The notes below the pieces were generated by a model, which saw nothing but the letters and a program-made list of their open reading frames with translations, was not told the origin of the DNA and made no database searches. A stretch of DNA of 64,000 nt, from the NCBI RefSeq assembly GCF_009176545.1, contig NZ_VTOJ01000002.1, positions 992,001 to 1,056,000 on the forward strand. Direction: 5' to 3'. The stretch is from Salinigranum salinum (lineage in GTDB: Archaea; Halobacteriota; Halobacteria; Halobacteriales; Haloferacaceae). Positions 43,888 to 53,488 of the stretch are shown here, in pieces; within the stretch, counting starts at the first letter, position 1, and every line of letters starts with the position of its first letter. The translations under genes and the position numbers were made by a program.

Positions 43888-44253
43888 TCAGGCCGTGACG
43901 ATCTGCGCCTCGAGGTCGCCGACGACGCTCATCACCGTATCGACGTCCTCGTCGGCGACGTCGAACGTCTCCAGCGCCTCCCGGAGGTGGGTGGCCACGA
44001 GCGCGAACTGGTCGTGCGTCACGTCCAGATGCTGGTGGGCAGCGTGCATGTCGGCTCCCGTGTAGTCGACGGGACCACCGGTGACGGAGCTGATGAACTG
44101 CGTCTGGTGTGCCCGCAACGCGTCCATGTCCGTCTCCTCGAACATCGGCGCCAGTCGGTCGTCCGCGAGGACGCGTTCGTAGAACTCGTCGACCACGGCC
44201 GTGATGGCCTCGTCCCCACCGAGGCGGTGGTACAGCGGCTGTTCCGGATCCAT
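43888..44253 (-). CDS. Group I truncated hemoglobin
   Basis: A 121-residue 2-on-2 globin. It begins PLYHRLGGDEAITAVVDEFY with Tyr25 at helix B position 10, and carries the proximal-His region MHAAHQHLDV (His73), then HFALVATHL-like helix G. Truncated hemoglobins bind O2 and NO and often act in NO detoxification. It is divergent from the H-NOX gene across an AT-rich 247-base promoter region, so both may react to the same gas. The ATG at 44253 is preferred over upstream codons because the globin pre-helix starts there. Confidence 0.88.
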   Translation of the reverse strand: MDPEQPLYHRLGGDEAITAVVDEFYERVLADDRLAPMFEETDMDALRAHQTQFISSVTGGPVDYTGADMHAAHQHLDVTHDQFALVATHLREALETFDVADEDVDTVMSVVGDLEAQIVTA

Positions 44254-44500
44254 AATCACTCGTTAATCCTCTCCGTATTAGGTGTATTCACTAATGTAAC
44301 TTCGGTAACTGAAAATATTATATACAGAGAAAGTCATTATATTCATAACGATGTTAAGTAGTGCTTTATCAGTGGCATTGGGCGGCCGCGTGAGACGACC
44401 GGCCGGAGATAGAGGCGTGACACGACCGCCCGGAGAGAGAACGGACACCGCGTGCGGCCATCCGGTCGCCGGACCACGGCAGCCCAGCAGGTGGTGAGTC
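44254..44500. promoter_or_regulatory. AT-rich divergent promoter region (globin / H-NOX)
   Basis: The stretch from about 44256 to 44370 is AT-rich compared with neighbouring DNA, with aaatattatatacag near 44307 as a likely TATA element for the rightward operon and gtaacttcggtaac near 44297 as a short inverted repeat. The long leader before the GTG of the H-NOX gene could be untranslated. Confidence 0.45.
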
Positions 44501-45052
44501 GTGCACGGAATCGTCCTGAAAGGGCTGAAGGACTTCGTCGTCGACTCGTACGATCGCGACACGTGGCAGACGCTCCAGCGGGAGGCCGAACTGCCGCACC
44601 GGCTGTACGTCCCGGTGACGGAGTACCCCGACGAGGACGTCCTGACCCTCGTGGAGACCGCGTCTAGGCTCACCGATCTCCCGGTGCCCGATCTGCTCGA
44701 ATCGTTCGGTCGGTTCATCGTACCGCCGCTGGTCGAAACCTACGGCATCCACGTCGACGCCGACTGGACCGGACTCGAACTCATCGCCAACGTCGAGACG
44801 TACATCCACCTCGCGCTCCGGGCGAAACAGATCTCGACGTACACGCCCCCCGAGCTTGAAGCGGAGTGGCGCGGAACGGACACGGTCAGCGTCGTCTACC
44901 GGTCGGATCGACAGCTCTGTCACCTCGCGCGGGGCATCATCAACGGTGTCGGCGACTACTTCGACGAACCGTACGTCATCGAGGAACCCCGCTGTATGCA
45001 CGCGGGCGACGACCACTGTGAACTCGTCGTGAGCCGTGCGCCCGGTGTCTGA
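44501..45052 (+). CDS. H-NOX (heme NO/O2-binding) sensor protein
   Basis: A 183-residue stand-alone H-NOX domain (HNOB family) that starts MHGIVLKGLKDFVV. The proximal heme ligand position is His103 (YIHLALR), and the propionate-binding YxSxR motif is YRSDR at 133-137, exactly as in bacterial H-NOX. Such sensors bind NO or O2 at a ferrous heme and pass the signal to a partner protein. The next gene is a chemotaxis transducer without an extracellular sensing domain, a combination also seen in bacteria where H-NOX controls chemoreceptors. The GTG start at 44501 is the only one that includes the whole N-terminal helix. Confidence 0.9.
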   Translation: MHGIVLKGLKDFVVDSYDRDTWQTLQREAELPHRLYVPVTEYPDEDVLTLVETASRLTDLPVPDLLESFGRFIVPPLVETYGIHVDADWTGLELIANVETYIHLALRAKQISTYTPPELEAEWRGTDTVSVVYRSDRQLCHLARGIINGVGDYFDEPYVIEEPRCMHAGDDHCELVVSRAPGV

Positions 45053-45206
45053 ACGGGATGCAGTCCACCGATTCCCTCGACGGCAGAGCGACCTCACTCG
45101 CCTCGCCAGCCGGGTTTAACAATAGGTTCAACTCTTTAAATTCGATTTATTATAACATTATGTGCAGGCTAAAGGTTTATTATGGAAGATAATAAACTCA
45201 CTGAAC

Positions 45207-47183
45207 ATGGTAGGTTACTCTGAACCCCTGTTACCAGGGTTCATACGCCGACGGTACGCCCTCCGGTTCGGAGCGGTCCTGGGGGTCGTCGCCGTCGCCG
45301 TCGGCGGGATGGGCCTGGGGCTGGGAGCAACGACAGCGTATCAGGTTCCGACGAATCTCGTCGTCGGAGCGGTCGGTGGCATCCTCGTCAGTGGCCTGCT
45401 CGGTGGCGTCCTAGTCCAGCGGACGATGGACGCCGTCGACTCCATCCGTACGAACGCCGACCAGCTCCGCGACGGGGACCTCGACGTCGACTTCGACCAG
45501 GAACGCGTCGACGGCGTCGGGCAGCTAGCGGGGTCGCTCGCCGCGCTCCGCGACGCCGTCGACGAACAGCGGACGCAGGCCCAGGCCGACCGACGCCGGT
45601 TCGAAGAGTACCAGCGTCAGCTCGAGGCGACCGCCACCGAGTACGCCGACGGGCTGGACACGGCGCGCACGGATCGGTCGGTTCGGCTGCCGACCGACGT
45701 CCAGAGCGACGCGATGGCGACGGTCGGCGTCGCGTGTAACGAGCTCCTGCAGACGCGACAGAGCCAGGTGGACGACCTGGAAGCGAGATGTGAGCGGTCG
45801 TCCCGGGAGGCGCAGGAGCTGAAAGCGCAGGCGAGGGAGTACGCGGACGTCTTCGAGGAGTGCGCGGAGGGCGACCTCGGCCAGCGGATGGACGAGGACG
45901 TCGACAGCCCGATCGCCGCCGAGTTCGCCGCCCGCTTCAACGAGATGATGTCGCAGTTCGAGTGGGCGACCGTCGAAGCCGAGAACTTCGCCGCGGAGGT
46001 CGCGACGCTGGGCAACGAGGTCACGGTGAGCACCGCCGAGGTGCGCGAGGGGAGCGAGCAGGTCGCCGGCAGTCTGAACACCATCTCGGACGTGACCGAA
46101 CAGCAGTACGAGAACCTCGACGCGGTGGTGTCGGACATGACCGATCTCTCCGCGGCGATCGAGGAGATCGACGCCTCGTCGAGCGACGTCGCCGACATCG
46201 CCCAGCAGACGGTCGAGACCGGGCGAGCGGGTCGTGAGGCGGCCACCGAAGCGATCGACGGCATGAAGGAGATCGAACAGGAGTCCGTCGACACGGTCGA
46301 GGAGATCGAACGGCTCGAGTCCGCGGTTCAGCAGATCGACGAGCTCATCGAGTTCATCCGCGAGGTCGCCGAGCAGACGAACATGCTGGCACTGAACGCG
46401 AACATCGAGGCGTCCCGCGCCGGCGAATCCGGGCAGGGGTTCGCGGTGGTTGCCCGCGAGATCAAAGAGCTCGCCAAGGGGACGAAGGACGCGGCGGCGG
46501 ACATCGAGACCCGACTCGAGGAGATCCAGACGCGAACGTCCGAGACGGTCGAGGAGGTTCGTGAGACGCGGGAGAAGATCGCACGCCACACCGGCTCGGT
46601 GGAGAACGCCGCGAACGCGCTCAACGACATCGCCGAGAACGCACGCGACACGAACGCCGGGGTCCAGGACGTCAGCTCGGTCATGAGCCAGCAGGCCGAC
46701 GCCACCCAGGCCGTGCTCGCAGCCGTCGACGGAGCGACGGAGACCAGCGCCGAGACGGTCGAGGAGGCGACCGCGACGGCGCGGGGAGCCGAAGAACAGA
46801 CCCGTGCGTTGAGCGCGGTCTCGGACCGTGCGGAGGCGCTGTCGACGCAGGCGACCCGACTGAAACAGACGCTCGATCAGTTCGAGACCGACGGGGCGGC
46901 CACCACCGGGACCGACGTGGGTTCGGCCGCTGCGGATGCGGTCGACGCGGAGTCGGACGACCCCGCGGAGCGAGATGACGGGTCGACGCCCGAGACGGAA
47001 GGGGAGAGCGAAGGGTCCGGCGTGGTCGAACACGCGGAGACCGTGGGCGTCGAGGCGACCAACGGCACGAGCCTGACGGACGCCGAGTCGGCCGACCACC
47101 GAGACCGTGAGCGGGACGCCGACGCCGAGTCGCGAGACAGCGAGGGGGGGCAGTCGTCAGTCGACGGCACTACGGAGCCATGA
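45207..47183 (+). CDS. Two-TM methyl-accepting chemotaxis transducer without extracellular domain
   Basis: A 658-residue transducer. TM1 (about 20-41) and TM2 (about 50-70) are joined by fewer than ten outside residues; a HAMP domain (71-125) and the long coiled-coil signalling domain follow. The kinase-contact hairpin is [20 protein letters not shown], near-canonical, and a Glu/Ser/Asp-rich tail of about 100 residues ends the protein. With no ligand domain it must be driven by a partner; the H-NOX directly upstream (AT-rich 154-base gap) is the obvious candidate. The layout also resembles sensory-rhodopsin transducers, but no rhodopsin gene is nearby. ATG at 45207 is chosen because TM1 begins soon after. 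Confidence 0.9.
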
Positions 47184-47226: not shown

Positions 47227-47814
47227 ATGAGTGGGCAGCTGGCGGCGTTCGACGAGAGCGAGGCGGTCGATCCGGAGTCGGTGATCGAGTTCCTGGAGTT
47301 CCGTCTCGACGGCGCGCGGTACGCGCTCGAGATCGGACGAGTCGGGCCGGTCGTCCGGCACCCCGCGACGACGCGCGTTCCGGGCGCCCCGTCGGGGATC
47401 TACGGGGCATCGACGAACGAAGGGGACGTGGTCGTCGTCGTCGACACGTACGCGGTCGTCGGTCTCGACCGACCGTTCGCCGACCCGGACGAGGGGTATC
47501 TCGTACTCCTGAAAGAGGACGACACGCCCCAACCCATCGGGCTCCTCGTCGAGGCGATCGACGGGATCGCCCGCCGCCACGTCGACACGGTGTCGCCACC
47601 ACGAACGGGTGGCACGTCGGTCGACGACCAGTGGTTCAGGGCCACGATCGAGAGAGACGGAGGCCGGGACGTCCCGGTGTTCGACAGCCAGCAGCTCGTC
47701 GCCGCGCTTCACGCGGCACGGGGAGCAGACATGAACACGATGCAACAGACAGACGCGGAAGACGTGCGAGCCGACCGAGACCGAACCGAGGACCGAAGCG
47801 AGGTGGACGGATGA
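47227..47814 (+). CDS. cheW: CheW coupling protein
   Basis: A 195-residue CheW domain protein that links transducers to CheA. The double beta-barrel core runs from about 18 to 165 (EFLEFRLDGARYALEIGRVG; GAPSGIYGASTNEGDVVVVV). An acidic C-terminal tail of 30 residues is lineage-specific. Its stop codon overlaps the cheY start (ATGA). The start at 47227 gives a normal N-terminus. Confidence 0.9.
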   Translation: MSGQLAAFDESEAVDPESVIEFLEFRLDGARYALEIGRVGPVVRHPATTRVPGAPSGIYGASTNEGDVVVVVDTYAVVGLDRPFADPDEGYLVLLKEDDTPQPIGLLVEAIDGIARRHVDTVSPPRTGGTSVDDQWFRATIERDGGRDVPVFDSQQLVAALHAARGADMNTMQQTDAEDVRADRDRTEDRSEVDG

Positions 47815-48188
47815 CCGTCGGAATCCTGCTCGTCGACGACTCGAACTACATGCGGAGCAGGCTGAAGAGCGCGCTCGACGACGACGAGTACGAGGTCGTC
47901 GACGAGGCGTCGAACGGGGCGTGGGCCGTCCAGAAGTACAAGGAGCAGACCGACGACATCGACGTCGTCCTGATGGACATCGTGATGCGGAAGGCGAACG
48001 GGGTGAAGGCGACTGCGGCGATCAAACACCTCGACAAGGACGCGCGTGTCATCATGTGTACGAGCGTCGGGCAACGGAAGAAGATGGAGCTGGCCGCCCG
48101 TGCCGGCGCGGACGGCTACATCACGAAACCGTTCGACGACGACGAGATCGTCAGAGCGATCCGAAGCATTCTCATGAGCGAGGCATGA
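47811..48188 (+). CDS. cheY: CheY response regulator
   Basis: A 125-residue receiver domain. Asp9-Asp10, phospho-acceptor Asp56 (LMDIVM), Thr84 (MCTSVGQ) and Lys106 (ITKPF) are present. In haloarchaea phospho-CheY acts on the archaellum motor through CheF and related proteins. In most archaeal CheY the residue after DIVM is Pro; here it is Arg. The start overlaps the cheW stop. Confidence 0.93.
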   Translation: MTVGILLVDDSNYMRSRLKSALDDDEYEVVDEASNGAWAVQKYKEQTDDIDVVLMDIVMRKANGVKATAAIKHLDKDARVIMCTSVGQRKKMELAARAGADGYITKPFDDDEIVRAIRSILMSEA

Positions 48189-48249: not shown

Positions 48250-51200
48250 GTGAACCGAGACGCCGAGTTCGTCCGTGAGACCAGGGCCTCGTTACAGCAG
48301 CTGACGAGCGGTCTCCTCGAACTCGAACGGGAGGGACTCACCCGCGACCGCCTGGACGAGCTGTTCCGCACGGCGCACACGCTGAAGGGCAACTGCGGGA
48401 TGGCGGGGCTCGACGGGGCGAGTCGGCTCGCTCACGCGGTCGAGGAGCTCCTCTCCGAACTGCGCGACGGGAGTCTCGCGCCCACGCCGCCGCTGATCGA
48501 CGCGTCGCTCGCCGCACTCGACGACATCAATGCGATGGTCGTGGAGTGGCACGAAGACGAGACCGTGACGACGGACCCGAGTCCGTCGGTGTCGACACTC
48601 CGCGACGCGATGCACCGACACCGCGACGATCCCGGGGTCGAAGACGAGAGACAGCCGCCGACCGACGACGGTCCGGCACGTCCCGAATCCGACGCCACGC
48701 CGACGGTCGACGTCGGATTCGACCTCACCGAAGACGAAGTCGACGCTGTTGGTGACGAACTCGATCTCACCGGGGACGAAGTCGGTCTCGCCGAAGACGA
48801 GTTCGAGACAGGTGACGACCCCTTCGATCTCACCGAGGACGAACTCGACGCAGGTGACGACGCCTTCGGTCTCACCGGGGCCGGAGTCGATCGGACGGAC
48901 GACGAGTTCGATCCGGCGGTCGTCGACGCACTCGACTCCGCGAGCGGCTTCGACGACCTCGAAGCGCTCCTCGCCGAGCTCGACGAGCCAGACGTACGGG
49001 ACGACGAGGACGAGGCGCGGTGGGGGGCGTTCGACAGTGTCGAGCCGGACGACTCGGAAGACGCGGGAGACGCCGACCGGACGAGGTCGGATGGACGTCT
49101 CGCGGGACGCAGCGCTCGACCGGAGGAGATCGACGCATCGTCCGAGCCGATGGCCGAGTTCGACACGATCAAGGGTGGCGTCGAGCAGGACGACATCTCG
49201 TCGCTCGACGGCGAGCTCGTCGACGTCGAGTTCGGCGAGTTCGACGACGACGACGAGCTGTCGATTCAGGACCTCCTGGACGGGGAGGTGGCCGGGACGG
49301 ATGCGACGAGCGGAGCCGTCGATCGGATCGACGACGGGGCCGACGAGGAGCGGCCCGCGGACTCGTCTGACGTCCCGAGATCGTTCGACGTCGACGACGA
49401 GACCAGTCTCGACGACGTCGGTTCCGAGCTGACCGCTTCCGGCGTGACCGACGTCTCCGAGGGCCGGGAACCGTCGAACGACGCGACGAGCGCGGACACC
49501 GCCGGGCCGGACGACGTGACGAGTGCGGATACGGTCGAGCCGGAGAGTGCGGGAGGTGTAGATGCAGCCATCGCCGAACCGGACGAGGGAGCGAGCGCGG
49601 ACACCGCCGACTCGGAGAGCGGGGCCGGTGCGGACACCACTGAACCGAAAAGCGCGGTCGGTGCGGACACCACCGAGCCGGGCGACGTGGGGAGTACGGA
49701 CACTGCCGAGCCGGACGAGGTGGAGAGTACGGACCGCGAGGAAGAGAACCCGTTCGTCCAGGCCGACCTCGTCGACGAGGCCGAGACGGACGAGCCGGCG
49801 TCCGAACGGGTGACGAGCACGGACCGCGGCGACGACGAAGCCGTCGTCGGAGCCGACGAGCCGGTCCAGCCGACGGACCCGTTCGAGCCGTCCGACGACC
49901 CGGCGACCGGAGAGTCCGTCGAAGCGGCGTCGGACTCGACCGACGATCCAGCCGATGGACCCGATATCGACTTCGCTGGGGGTGACTCGTCACATCCGGA
50001 CAGAGTCGACGCGAAGACAGACGACGAACCGGAGATCGACCTCTCGGACGTCCTCCGCGAGGAACCCGAGACCGATCCGGACGTCGGTGGCGACGCGCCC
50101 GCGGGGCTGCCGGACATCGACGAACTCGGCGCGTCCGTGACCGACGACGTGCCGGTCGCGCACGAACCGACGCCCGACGTGTCGTTCCAGCGAGACCGAC
50201 ACACCGTCGAGTTCGAGTCGCGGTTCGCCGAGCGGTTCGGCACCACCCCCGACGGCGAGTCGGAGCCGCTGGTGCAGACGGCGTCGTCGACCATCGAGGA
50301 GAGCTGCCTCGACACCAATCGGTACCAGTCGAGCAGCGCCGTGGAATCCCCTCCCGGCGAGGTGGGCGCGACACCGACGACTCAGGTGGGGTCGATCACG
50401 GTCGACGTGCAGAACGCGGACACGCTGTTGAACCTGGTGGACGAGCTGTCGCTGGCACAGCTCCGACTCAGAGAGGCGGACGAGAACGAACGCGACGACC
50501 ACCTCTCGACGCTCGAGTCGGTGACCGCCGAACTCCGGCGGACGGTGATGGACCTCCGTCTTATGCCCCTCTCGACCGTCGACGTCGGGCTTCCTCGAAT
50601 CGTCCGCGACGTCGCACGGGAGCAGGGCAAGCGGGTCGCGTTCGAGGTCTCCGACGAGGGCGTCAATCTCGACCGGGGCATCATCGAGAAACTCGGCGAT
50701 CCGCTGGTCCACCTCGTCCGCAACGCGGTCGATCACGGCATCGAGTCGCCTCGAGAACGCAAGCGGAAGGACAAACCGCCAGAGGGGACGATCGAACTCC
50801 GGGCGTGGCGCGACCGCGATCGCGCGGTCATCGAGATCGAAGACGACGGCCGAGGGATCAGCACGGACCGACTCCGACAGCACGCGGTCGAGACCGGGCT
50901 GCGCTCTCGGATAGGGGTCGAGAAGCTGTCGCAGGACGAGGTGTACGACCTCGTCTTCGAACCGGGCTTTTCGACCGCGGCGGAGGTGACGGACGTCAGC
51001 GGCCGCGGCGTCGGCATGGACGCGGTCAAACGGACCATCAACTCGCTGGACGGGACGGTGAGCATCGAGAGCGAACCGGACGTGGGGACGACCATCCGGA
51101 TCGGGCTCCCCGTCTCGGTCGCCGTCTCGAAGATGCTGTTCGTCGAGGTCGGCTCCGAACGGTACGCGATGCCGGCGAGCGTCGTCAACGACGTCGAGGG

Positions 51201-51543
51201 CGTCGACGAGGAGGCACTCACCGGCGACGGTCGGATCGCCGTCGAGTGGCCCGACGAGTCGGTCGACCGACCGGACTACGTGCCGCTCCGTTCCGTCCGC
51301 GAAGCGTTCGACGTCCGAGACGGCGGCGTCGACTCCACGAACCGCGTCGAAGACCAGCGGGTCGTCGTCCGGCTGGAGCCCGACACGCGCGAACTCGCCC
51401 TCCTCTGTGACGGGGTCGACGACGCCCGCGAGGTCGTGGTCAAACCCTACGAGGGCCTGCTCGGCGACGTCCCCGGGATCAGCGGGGCGACGATGAGCGA
51501 GGACGGATCGCTGGTGAATATCATCGAGGTGACATCGATATGA
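48250..51543 (+). CDS. cheA: CheA histidine kinase with a very long acidic linker
   Basis: A 1097-residue kinase (GTG start). The HPt domain has His43 in RTAHTLKGNCG. From about residue 105 to 710 lies an acidic linker with two degenerate tandem repeat zones: DLTEDE.DAGDD-type units (about 158-220) and about 12-residue units like SADTAEPDE (about 415-500). The dimerisation helices (from about 715), ATPase with N box HLVRNAVDHG, G1 DDGRGI and G2 GRGVGMD, and a C-terminal CheW-like domain (about 955-1095) follow. A separate CheY-binding domain is not obvious. The gene overlaps cheC (ATGA). Confidence 0.93.
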   Translation: MNRDAEFVRETRASLQQLTSGLLELEREGLTRDRLDELFRTAHTLKGNCGMAGLDGASRLAHAVEELLSELRDGSLAPTPPLIDASLAALDDINAMVVEWHEDETVTTDPSPSVSTLRDAMHRHRDDPGVEDERQPPTDDGPARPESDATPTVDVGFDLTEDEVDAVGDELDLTGDEVGLAEDEFETGDDPFDLTEDELDAGDDAFGLTGAGVDRTDDEFDPAVVDALDSASGFDDLEALLAELDEPDVRDDEDEARWGAFDSVEPDDSEDAGDADRTRSDGRLAGRSARPEEIDASSEPMAEFDTIKGGVEQDDISSLDGELVDVEFGEFDDDDELSIQDLLDGEVAGTDATSGAVDRIDDGADEERPADSSDVPRSFDVDDETSLDDVGSELTASGVTDVSEGREPSNDATSADTAGPDDVTSADTVEPESAGGVDAAIAEPDEGASADTADSESGAGADTTEPKSAVGADTTEPGDVGSTDTAEPDEVESTDREEENPFVQADLVDEAETDEPASERVTSTDRGDDEAVVGADEPVQPTDPFEPSDDPATGESVEAASDSTDDPADGPDIDFAGGDSSHPDRVDAKTDDEPEIDLSDVLREEPETDPDVGGDAPAGLPDIDELGASVTDDVPVAHEPTPDVSFQRDRHTVEFESRFAERFGTTPDGESEPLVQTASSTIEESCLDTNRYQSSSAVESPPGEVGATPTTQVGSITVDVQNADTLLNLVDELSLAQLRLREADENERDDHLSTLESVTAELRRTVMDLRLMPLSTVDVGLPRIVRDVAREQGKRVAFEVSDEGVNLDRGIIEKLGDPLVHLVRNAVDHGIESPRERKRKDKPPEGTIELRAWRDRDRAVIEIEDDGRGISTDRLRQHAVETGLRSRIGVEKLSQDEVYDLVFEPGFSTAAEVTDVSGRGVGMDAVKRTINSLDGTVSIESEPDVGTTIRIGLPVSVAVSKMLFVEVGSERYAMPASVVNDVEGVDEEALTGDGRIAVEWPDESVDRPDYVPLRSVREAFDVRDGGVDSTNRVEDQRVVVRLEPDTRELALLCDGVDDAREVVVKPYEGLLGDVPGISGATMSEDGSLVNIIEVTSI

Positions 51544-52190
51544 GTAAAGTGGATCATTCGGTAGACGGACAGTATCGGATCGACATCGAAAAGCTGGGCG
51601 TGTTGAACCACCTGGGCGTGGTCGGCGCCGGCGGGGTCGAAGCGCGACTCGGGAAGTTGGCCGGCAAGCCGACCGCCGTCGAGTCCGGCGGCGTGAAGAA
51701 CGGCTACGTCGACGAGTCGACGGTCGACCTCGTCTTCCCCGCCGAGCGACGGCTGGGGGTGAGAATGCCGCTCGACGGCGTGCCACGCGGCTGCGTGCTC
51801 GTCCTGTTCACGCCGCCGGGGGCGTCTCGGGCCATCCGGCTGATGCTCGCGGACACCGACGAGGACGTCGACCAGGTGTCGAACGAGATGGCGGTGAGCA
51901 CGCTCGTCGAACTCGGGGGGATCATCGCGAACGGCTTCCTCGACGCGCTGGCGGACACGTTCGACCAGCACATCGCCACCCAGCCGCCAGTCGTCCTGAA
52001 CGACCAGCTCTCGACGGTCGTCGGGAAAGTGGTCGCCGGAGACGAGGGGCAGGGGCTGTATCTCGAGAGTGCGCTCAACATCGCGAGTCACGACATCGAC
52101 GTCACGGTGTACCTGTTTCCGGAGAACGACATCTTCGCCCAGATCCTCGACCGGATCGACATGGGGATGCTCCTCGGCGAGGTCGACTGA
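51540..52190 (+). CDS. cheC: CheC-family protein
   Basis: A 216-residue CheC-like protein (CheY-phosphate phosphatase/adaptor family). The paired phosphatase helices are recognisable at STLVELGGIIANGFLDALAD (about 120-139), with its Glu and Asn in the usual spacing, while the second helix pair after about 155 is less conserved, so catalytic activity is uncertain. In archaea CheC proteins interact with CheD and CheF-like motor proteins. ATG overlaps the cheA stop by four bases and its own stop overlaps the next start (TGATG). Confidence 0.82.
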   Translation: MSKVDHSVDGQYRIDIEKLGVLNHLGVVGAGGVEARLGKLAGKPTAVESGGVKNGYVDESTVDLVFPAERRLGVRMPLDGVPRGCVLVLFTPPGASRAIRLMLADTDEDVDQVSNEMAVSTLVELGGIIANGFLDALADTFDQHIATQPPVVLNDQLSTVVGKVVAGDEGQGLYLESALNIASHDIDVTVYLFPENDIFAQILDRIDMGMLLGEVD

Positions 52191-53488
52191 TGAAGCTGAG
52201 CGTGACCGCGCTGGGAACGTTCTACGAGATGGCTCGCGAGGGCGCCGGGCTGGCGGCGACGCGTCTGAACTCGATCTCCGACATCGACAGCCGCGTGAAG
52301 GTCACCCGCCTGCACTTCACGCGCCGCTCCGAGATCCGCAACGTGCTCGACAGTGGTGGGGAGAAGGTCGGAATCCGCGTCTCCTTGGACGGGGGGCTCG
52401 CCGGAACCTCGATCCTCCTGTTCGACCGCGACAGCGCCAAGTCCGTTGCGGGGATCCTCGTCGACGACGTGGACGAGAAGCTGACCAGCGACCTCGCGAC
52501 CAGCGCCATCGTCGAGGCCTGTAACATCATGAACAGCGGGTTCGTCGACGGCTGGGCCGACGTCCTCGACGCCGAGATCACGGTCTCCGCGCCGGAGTAC
52601 GTCGTCGGCGACGCCGCGGGCGCGTTCGTCGACGACGGCGAGTTCGCCGCCATGCACGACGAGCTGGCGCTGCTGTTCCGGAGCCAGATCGAGACGCAAT
52701 CGGACGAGATCGGCTTCGAGCACTACCTCGTCCCCGAACACGAGTCGTTCGCCCGGCTGTTCGAGACGCAGTCGGACGAGAGCGGCATCGAGTACGAGAA
52801 GCTCGCCGGCTTCGACGAGATGGCCCAGCACGGGTCGACATGCGTCGCGGAGTACCTGACGAAGATGACGGGGATCGAGATGGGCGTCGACATCCGTCGC
52901 ATCAACTTCGTCTCGCTCGACGCCATCCCCGAGACCGTCCCGAACGACCCGCTCGTCAGCGTGGCGTTCAGCTTCGACGGGACACTCGGCGGCTACCTCC
53001 TGTTCCTGTTCGATCCGGAGTCGGCGAACGAACTGGTCGACGCCACCGTCGGCAACGCCCGCGGTGGTGGGCTCGGCCCGTTCGAACAGGACGCGATCAA
53101 GGAGCTGAGCAACGTCATGACCAGCGGGCTCCTCGACGGCTGGGCGAACATGCTCGACGCGACCATCGACCACTCCACCCCCGCGTACTCGCACGACATG
53201 GGAGCGGCCGTCGTCGACCCGCTCATCATCGGCCTGAGCGAGGTGCAGGAGTTCGCGTTCGTCTTCGACACGCGCATTCGCGCCGTCAACACCGAGTTCG
53301 ACGTGGACATCTACGCCATCCCCGACGAGAACGACCTCGAATCCGCACTCGACCAGCTCAACGCGGGCCGGGTCGGTCGGTCGCTGGACGCGGACGTCTA
53401 CGAGCCCGAGTTCAGGGCCAGAGAGATCGACGCGGAGGTGGTCGAAGAGATCGCGGCCGGGGCACTGGAGGAGCTCGACGAGCCATGA
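52190..53488 (+). CDS. Tandem CheC-domain protein
   Basis: A 432-residue protein built of two CheC-like halves. Domain 1 (about 1-190) has SAIVEACNIMNSGFVDGWAD; domain 2 (about 200-400) has AIKELSNVMTSGLLDGWANM, at matching relative positions, each with the E-x-x-N phosphatase core. Such double CheC proteins are known in haloarchaeal che operons. The start ATG shares one base with the cheC stop, and the CheD start overlaps the stop of this gene. An internal duplication is certain; activity is not. Confidence 0.85.
   Translation: MKLSVTALGTFYEMAREGAGLAATRLNSISDIDSRVKVTRLHFTRRSEIRNVLDSGGEKVGIRVSLDGGLAGTSILLFDRDSAKSVAGILVDDVDEKLTSDLATSAIVEACNIMNSGFVDGWADVLDAEITVSAPEYVVGDAAGAFVDDGEFAAMHDELALLFRSQIETQSDEIGFEHYLVPEHESFARLFETQSDESGIEYEKLAGFDEMAQHGSTCVAEYLTKMTGIEMGVDIRRINFVSLDAIPETVPNDPLVSVAFSFDGTLGGYLLFLFDPESANELVDATVGNARGGGLGPFEQDAIKELSNVMTSGLLDGWANMLDATIDHSTPAYSHDMGAAVVDPLIIGLSEVQEFAFVFDTRIRAVNTEFDVDIYAIPDENDLESALDQLNAGRVGRSLDADVYEPEFRAREIDAEVVEEIAAGALEELDEP

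Follow-up and report, generated by a model that had tools for sequence, protein, structure and literature searches.

What supplies the input to a chemoreceptor that has no sensor domain of its own? This question is raised by a locus of Salinigranum salinum (genome of 4.69 Mb; G000), a haloarchaeon in the same family group as Haloferax, where a gene for a stand-alone H-NOX protein precedes a gene for a methyl-accepting transducer without a sensor domain. Both lie in the 64,000-nucleotide stretch of contig C2 that was analyzed here as a whole and is referred to as the window. Our favored answer, to which we give a probability of about 70%, is that the H-NOX and the transducer together make up a two-protein NO receptor. 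The gene set reaches past the segment treated in the preliminary description, with genes for CheW, CheY, CheA, and two CheC-like proteins following up to position 53488.

The H-NOX (HNOB) gene, on the forward strand at 44501–45052, runs from a GTG start at 44501 to a stop at 45052 and encodes 183 amino acids. Residues 2–161 match the HNOB domain (Pfam PF07700, E = 4.8e-32), with an overlapping V4R match, and such proteins are labeled “heme NO-binding domain-containing protein” in PLSDB. The proximal heme ligand, His103 (codon at 44807–44809), is conserved without exception among the transducer-linked relatives (38 of 38, locus L077 being left out), the heme-propionate motif Y133-x-S135-x-R137 (44897–44911), which reads Y133-R-S-D-R137 in the window protein, occupies invariant alignment columns, and P117 is kept as strictly as both in the linked members. 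A putative zinc site consists of C140, E162, C165, and C173 (44918–45019), all four of which are found in every linked member; the column of E162 holds His in the Shewanella oneidensis protein and His or Gln in H-NOX of Shewanella/Vibrio. The AlphaFold model (pLDDT 88.8, built from 37 sequences) has the S. oneidensis H-NOX (4u9b) as its best Foldseek match, with a TM score of 0.90 and 26% identity. The protein is predicted to bind heme and a diatomic gas.

The transducer gene follows on the forward strand at 45162–47183 (MCPsignal PF00015, E = 4.2e-34). Two uncharged hydrophobic stretches form predicted transmembrane helices at residues 36–60 (45267–45341) and 66–85 (45357–45416), with about five, and at most 10, outside residues between them, and the MCP signaling domain at residues 357–524 (46230–46733) has a conserved hairpin tip. 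No further sensor domain, cytoplasmic or as an ectodomain, was identified in the transducer by Pfam. Its AlphaFold model is all helical, which is the only statement for which a model of such low confidence (pLDDT 67) is usable. Both proteins are therefore as the preliminary description had them, namely an H-NOX with a proximal His103 and YRSDR, and a transducer with two helices, fewer than ten outside residues, and no sensory domain. The true start of the transducer is probably the ATG at 45207 rather than the GTG at 45162, since an AT-rich, TATA-like stretch lies just 5′ of this ATG and the alignment of relatives begins there; the gene seems to have its own promoter in the S. salinum genome, a point against the two-protein reading. 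Another MCP of S. salinum, at 877654–878745 of contig C1 (L172:7415–8782; a 455-residue ORF), has no transmembrane helix and no recognized sensor domain, and may also draw its input from a partner.

Is the pair more than a chance neighborhood? We searched PF07700 in 392 sampled Halobacteria genomes, 86 of which gave a match, and the surroundings of nearly all matches were screened for MCPs. In the linked cases, the H-NOX gene is followed in the same direction by a gene for an MCP that has no ectodomain. Thirty-eight proteins keep His103 and adjoin a transducer (both members of four tandem pairs counted; two contig-end loci and L077 left out), eight keep it without adjoining one, 71 have lost it and adjoin none, and no protein combines the loss with an adjacent transducer. 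The linked fraction is thus 38 of the 46 His103-keeping proteins with readable context versus 0 of 71 proteins without His103, although the latter form a single clade with full support, and His103 was lost once on the tree, so that this two-by-two table is not made of independent trials. Locus L077 was dropped from the counts as a linked pair: an MCP lies 514 nt from a Tyr103 H-NOX there, but it has an ectodomain of about 240 residues and falls outside the transducer clade.

The transducers were also compared among themselves. All 33 of the 33 linked ones in the tree group into a single clade (SH-aLRT 99), which excludes five rhodopsin-linked transducers and the other MCPs of S. salinum; as controls, MCPs similar to the window transducer were taken from 40 genomes, an incomplete sample. 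Linked transducers have either two transmembrane helices separated by only a very short turn or a single continuous hydrophobic run, and apart from the product of the upstream gene no source of input is apparent for them. Distance matrices of H-NOX and transducer correlate closely (r = 0.94, 0 of 2000 permutations), also when reduced to seven non-redundant pairs (r = 0.72, 3 of 5000 permutations), a correlation that would also arise from co-inheritance. In the reverse direction, a profile of the linked transducers gave 21 best matches in the 392 genomes, each of at least 624 bits and all neighbors of an H-NOX gene, while the weaker, unlinked matches were mostly long ORFs aligning from about profile position 33–55, without the membrane part. 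No fusion of H-NOX and MCP in one chain was encountered, the two being separate ORFs in the window and in every locus scanned.

At the level of sequence, the partnership is therefore exclusive and co-evolving, and linkage, transducer clade, tree congruence, and reverse search lend strong support to the proposal of the preliminary description that the two genes make up a single sensor-receptor unit. Gene order by itself never proves function, and the two genes might be mere neighbors that are inherited together without acting together. This, however, would leave unexplained the recurrence in several families, the exclusivity in both directions, and the congruent trees, as well as the overlap between H-NOX stop and transducer start (4–29 nt in most of the bare pairs, i.e., those without Che genes) and the occurrence of the same gene content in two different orders, and we consider it very improbable.

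A different partner for the transducer is suggested by its membrane part, as the TM-HAMP portion resembles that of NpHtrII (2f95_B, E = 1.8e-6) and some Htr proteins have a similarly short loop. The transducer might thus be of the sensory-rhodopsin type (HtrI/HtrII), with the adjoining H-NOX being incidental, and a sensory rhodopsin as partner had been named in the preliminary description as the finding that would speak against the pair. However, S. salinum has only three rhodopsins, one halorhodopsin and two pumps of the bacteriorhodopsin type, and none of them is encoded beside an MCP; the two pumps of the bacteriorhodopsin type have the bacteriorhodopsin helix-C signature RYADWLFTTPLLLLDLALL, and one of them has a PDB match. 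In addition, rhodopsins are absent altogether from 10 of the 36 genomes with the pair, and among these 10 are six with the full module described below (four Haloferax, G385, and G404); moreover, rhodopsin-linked transducers sit elsewhere in the tree. A rhodopsin partner is thereby ruled out for the family and is extremely improbable for the window transducer.

What, then, would the pair sense? The preliminary description left this as NO or O2. Haloarchaea respire O2 and do aerotaxis, and an H-NOX that serves as an O2 sensor for aerotaxis would fit this way of life. In anaerobes, moreover, H-NOX fused to MCPs binds O2 (PMC8738867), but O2-binding H-NOX require a distal tyrosine, whereas the NO-type proteins lack it and control kinases or cyclic-di-GMP enzymes (PMC8738867; PMC12329717). 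The position that matches Tyr140 of the O2-binding type, residue 142, was located from its spacing, five residues past the R of YxSxR; the window protein has Leu there, and every linked member has V, L, F, W, or I. Nearly all linked members are also apolar at positions 5, 9, 74, and 78. With the distal tyrosine missing from every linked H-NOX, NO is a more likely ligand than O2, the other of the two gases first proposed; we regard the O2 sensor as quite improbable.

A more serious competitor concerns the chemistry of the signal rather than the pair itself. The pair may be real and yet sense oxidative or thiol stress through the conserved Cys3 zinc site instead of NO at the heme, as C140, C165, C173, and E162 occur in every transducer-linked member, and the H-NOX of Vibrio cholerae and Caulobacter signal by oxidation of that Cys site (PMC12329717; PMC8738867). 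The C. crescentus protein binds NO yet signals by Cys oxidation (PMC12329717), so heme and pocket do not prove NO signaling, and this precedent, together with the conserved site, makes thiol sensing the main rival as to the signal. On the other hand, His103, YxSxR, and P117 are kept just as strictly in the same proteins, and the His-less sister clade mostly keeps the Cys but never adjoins such a transducer, indicating that the heme ligand is what accompanies the partnership. We therefore judge thiol sensing unlikely, though well worth keeping in view, and prefer NO sensing at the heme.

How NO sensing might proceed can be outlined, and what we infer here extends from heme and NO binding and physical docking at a particular site to the sign of the response and swimming as its output. 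The soluble H-NOX would hold a ferrous heme through His103; binding of NO would yield a five-coordinate nitrosyl heme, releasing His103 and changing the conformation of the H-NOX. The protein would sit on the transducer's stalk in the cytoplasm and, as this cognate receptor has no ectodomain, provide its input; along the coiled coil, the change would reach the CheA/CheW encoded in the adjoining operon and alter the phosphorylation of the module's own CheY, with the CheC-like proteins acting as CheY-P phosphatases or sinks. As to the docking site, the preliminary description had placed it on the membrane-adjacent HAMP region. The linked transducers L076 and L078, however, have no membrane helices and retain their H-NOX partnership, which points further down the stalk. 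The site should therefore lie in the part that both keep, i.e., a HAMP-like unit with the stretch DGDLTRRLD and the upper signaling stalk.

The genes around the pair extend the picture. Immediately downstream, all on the forward strand, are CheW (47227–47814; PF01584, E = 1.7e-17), CheY (47814–48188; PF00072, E = 4.3e-27), CheA (48250–51543; 1097 amino acids with Hpt, HATPase_c, and CheW domains and a long acidic linker), CheC-like protein a (51540–52190; NCBIfam CheC, E = 1.4e-15, below the cut-off), and a double CheC/CheX-like protein b (52190–53488; PF04509, E = 3.1e-14). The linker of the CheA is an acidic, repetitive stretch of about 600 residues between the Hpt and the dimerization/catalytic part. 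In CheC-like protein a, ELGG replaces the active ExxN, with loss of the catalytic Asn, and the protein may bind CheY-P without hydrolyzing it; the ExxN is also lost in the Haloferax modules, and ELCN is kept in L003, L004, L041, and L067. Upstream of the H-NOX gene and divergent from it, a truncated globin is encoded on the reverse strand (43888–44259; PF01152, E = 9.8e-24). Some truncated globins oxidize NO. A link to denitrification via NirK was considered and dropped, as no association with the module was evident (NirK in 5 of 9 module genomes vs. 208 of 392 overall), which counts against the NO receptor rather than for it.

In ten other genomes, the pair is likewise accompanied by its own CheW, CheY, CheA, and CheC-like genes without CheR, CheB, or CheF. 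The full module is found in the window, in three Haloferax genomes, and at L003, L004, L039, L041, L067, and L079; in another Haloferax (H. profundi, G262), the same parts are split by a contig end, with the H-NOX on contig NZ_LOPV01000013. Next to 8 of the 10 other full modules there is a divergent gene for a truncated globin (Bac_globin family). In the window and in Haloferax the order is divergent globin, H-NOX, transducer, CheW, CheY, CheA, and CheC, whereas at L003, L004, L041, and L067 the divergent globin is followed by CheY, CheA, CheC, H-NOX, and transducer, then by CheW and CheC. The same complete set in two shuffled orders argues for function rather than a frozen order. Further downstream in G277, G183, and two Haloferax, CheC-like genes are followed by unrelated genes where these could be identified. 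Bare pairs, mostly in family group f4, have no Che genes and must therefore use the ordinary Che proteins of the cell. At four loci (L004:9956–11188, L039:6978–8316, L041:7311–8619, and L067:7693–9070), two tandem H-NOX genes precede the transducer. Both copies keep His103, and they branch apart from each other in the tree, so the two might conceivably pair as a heterodimer in the manner of soluble guanylate cyclase.

The Che set of the window is accessory, given that the genome encodes another CheA at 2.34 Mb of contig C1 with CheB, CheR, and CheF adjoining; the two CheA are 45% identical. It has the CheA, CheW, CheY, and CheC families in common with the main haloarchaeal che cluster, but lacks CheR, CheB, CheD, and CheF, where the main cluster has CheB, CheA, CheR, and CheF. 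Signaling from its CheY to the archaellum would need the CheF of the main cluster, and a different output is possible, such as pili, surface behavior, or gene expression, with the H-NOX-transducer pair as the input. Besides the missing genes, this is favored by the presence of another CheA in most full-module genomes examined and by the scores of the module CheA and CheY, which are well below the cut-offs of the haloarchaeal equivalogs in NCBIfam (CheA_Halo, 508 vs. 950 bits; CheY_Halo, 145 vs. 200 bits). However, the main CheA of S. salinum also falls short of its cut-off (836 vs. 950 bits), for which reason CheA_Halo was dropped as a test of accessory status. The bare pairs, in turn, suggest that the transducer can work in standard arrays, and in G277 and G183 no CheA other than that of the module was found. 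Taxis, which the preliminary description proposed as the output, is no more than a possible one, given that the pair heads a second Che set without CheR, CheB, and CheF. A non-archaellum output is, in our judgment, a genuine possibility, though short of probable. A still wider reading, namely that of a self-contained, laterally mobile NO chemosensory system of haloarchaea, comprising one or sometimes two tandem H-NOX, the sensorless transducer, its own CheA, CheW, and CheY and CheC-type phosphatases, with no methylation adaptation of its own, a non-archaellum output, and a neighboring globin that may remove NO, is doubtful at present.

The two-protein NO receptor can be set beside three known arrangements. 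With the H-NOX/HnoK system of S. oneidensis, an NO-type H-NOX that acts with a histidine kinase or cyclic-di-GMP enzyme, it shares a small soluble H-NOX with an apolar distal pocket and a Cys zinc site, encoded beside its effector, in addition to the fold. By contrast, the partner in the window is a chemoreceptor followed by a Che set rather than a kinase or cyclase, Glu takes the place of His/Gln in the zinc site, and the host is an archaeon. In the O2-binding type of Caldanaerobacter tengcongensis, an H-NOX likewise feeds an MCP but is fused to it, whereas the window system consists of two proteins, has no distal Tyr, and has an H-NOX only 20–22% identical. The haloarchaeal sensory rhodopsin-Htr complexes likewise combine a sensorless receptor, having two transmembrane helices with a short turn, with a separately encoded sensor, and their TM-HAMP part is homologous to that of the window transducer; here, however, a soluble heme protein takes the place of the membrane retinal protein as sensor, and the transducer belongs to a separate clade of the MCP tree.

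No description of an H-NOX-transducer pair in archaea, haloarchaea included, was found in the open-access papers searched, which is weak evidence of absence, and the reviews among them do not list the wiring of an NO-type H-NOX to a separate chemoreceptor. If our reading is true, NO sensing by H-NOX extends to archaea, beyond the bacteria and animals in which it has been studied to date, and the pair joins sensory rhodopsin-Htr as a second example in nature of a chemoreceptor whose sensor is encoded separately. The soluble transducer variants make the docking site mappable, and as the full module occurs in Haloferax species, a genus with established genetics, the reading is testable.

H-NOX genes also occur outside this partnership. 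Eight His103-bearing H-NOX lie away from a transducer (L040, L042, L054, L055, L062, L063, L070, and L081), suggesting that H-NOX can have other partners; near some of them are amine-oxidase-like, cupin, PNPOx, and NifU-like genes. Further families within this archaeal phylum have H-NOX with a higher HNOB score (L249–L257; families f22, f43, and f44), which have no MCP within 1.5 kb and show no halophile C-terminal Cys motif. In the His-less haloarchaeal clade (L075–L154, 71 proteins; e.g., L083:7945–8580), Tyr, Ala, Thr, or Val replaces the proximal His, while YxS/TxR and three Cys are mostly kept, and many of these genes adjoin a ribose-phosphate pyrophosphokinase-like gene and an HVO_0234-like beta-propeller gene in a conserved neighborhood.
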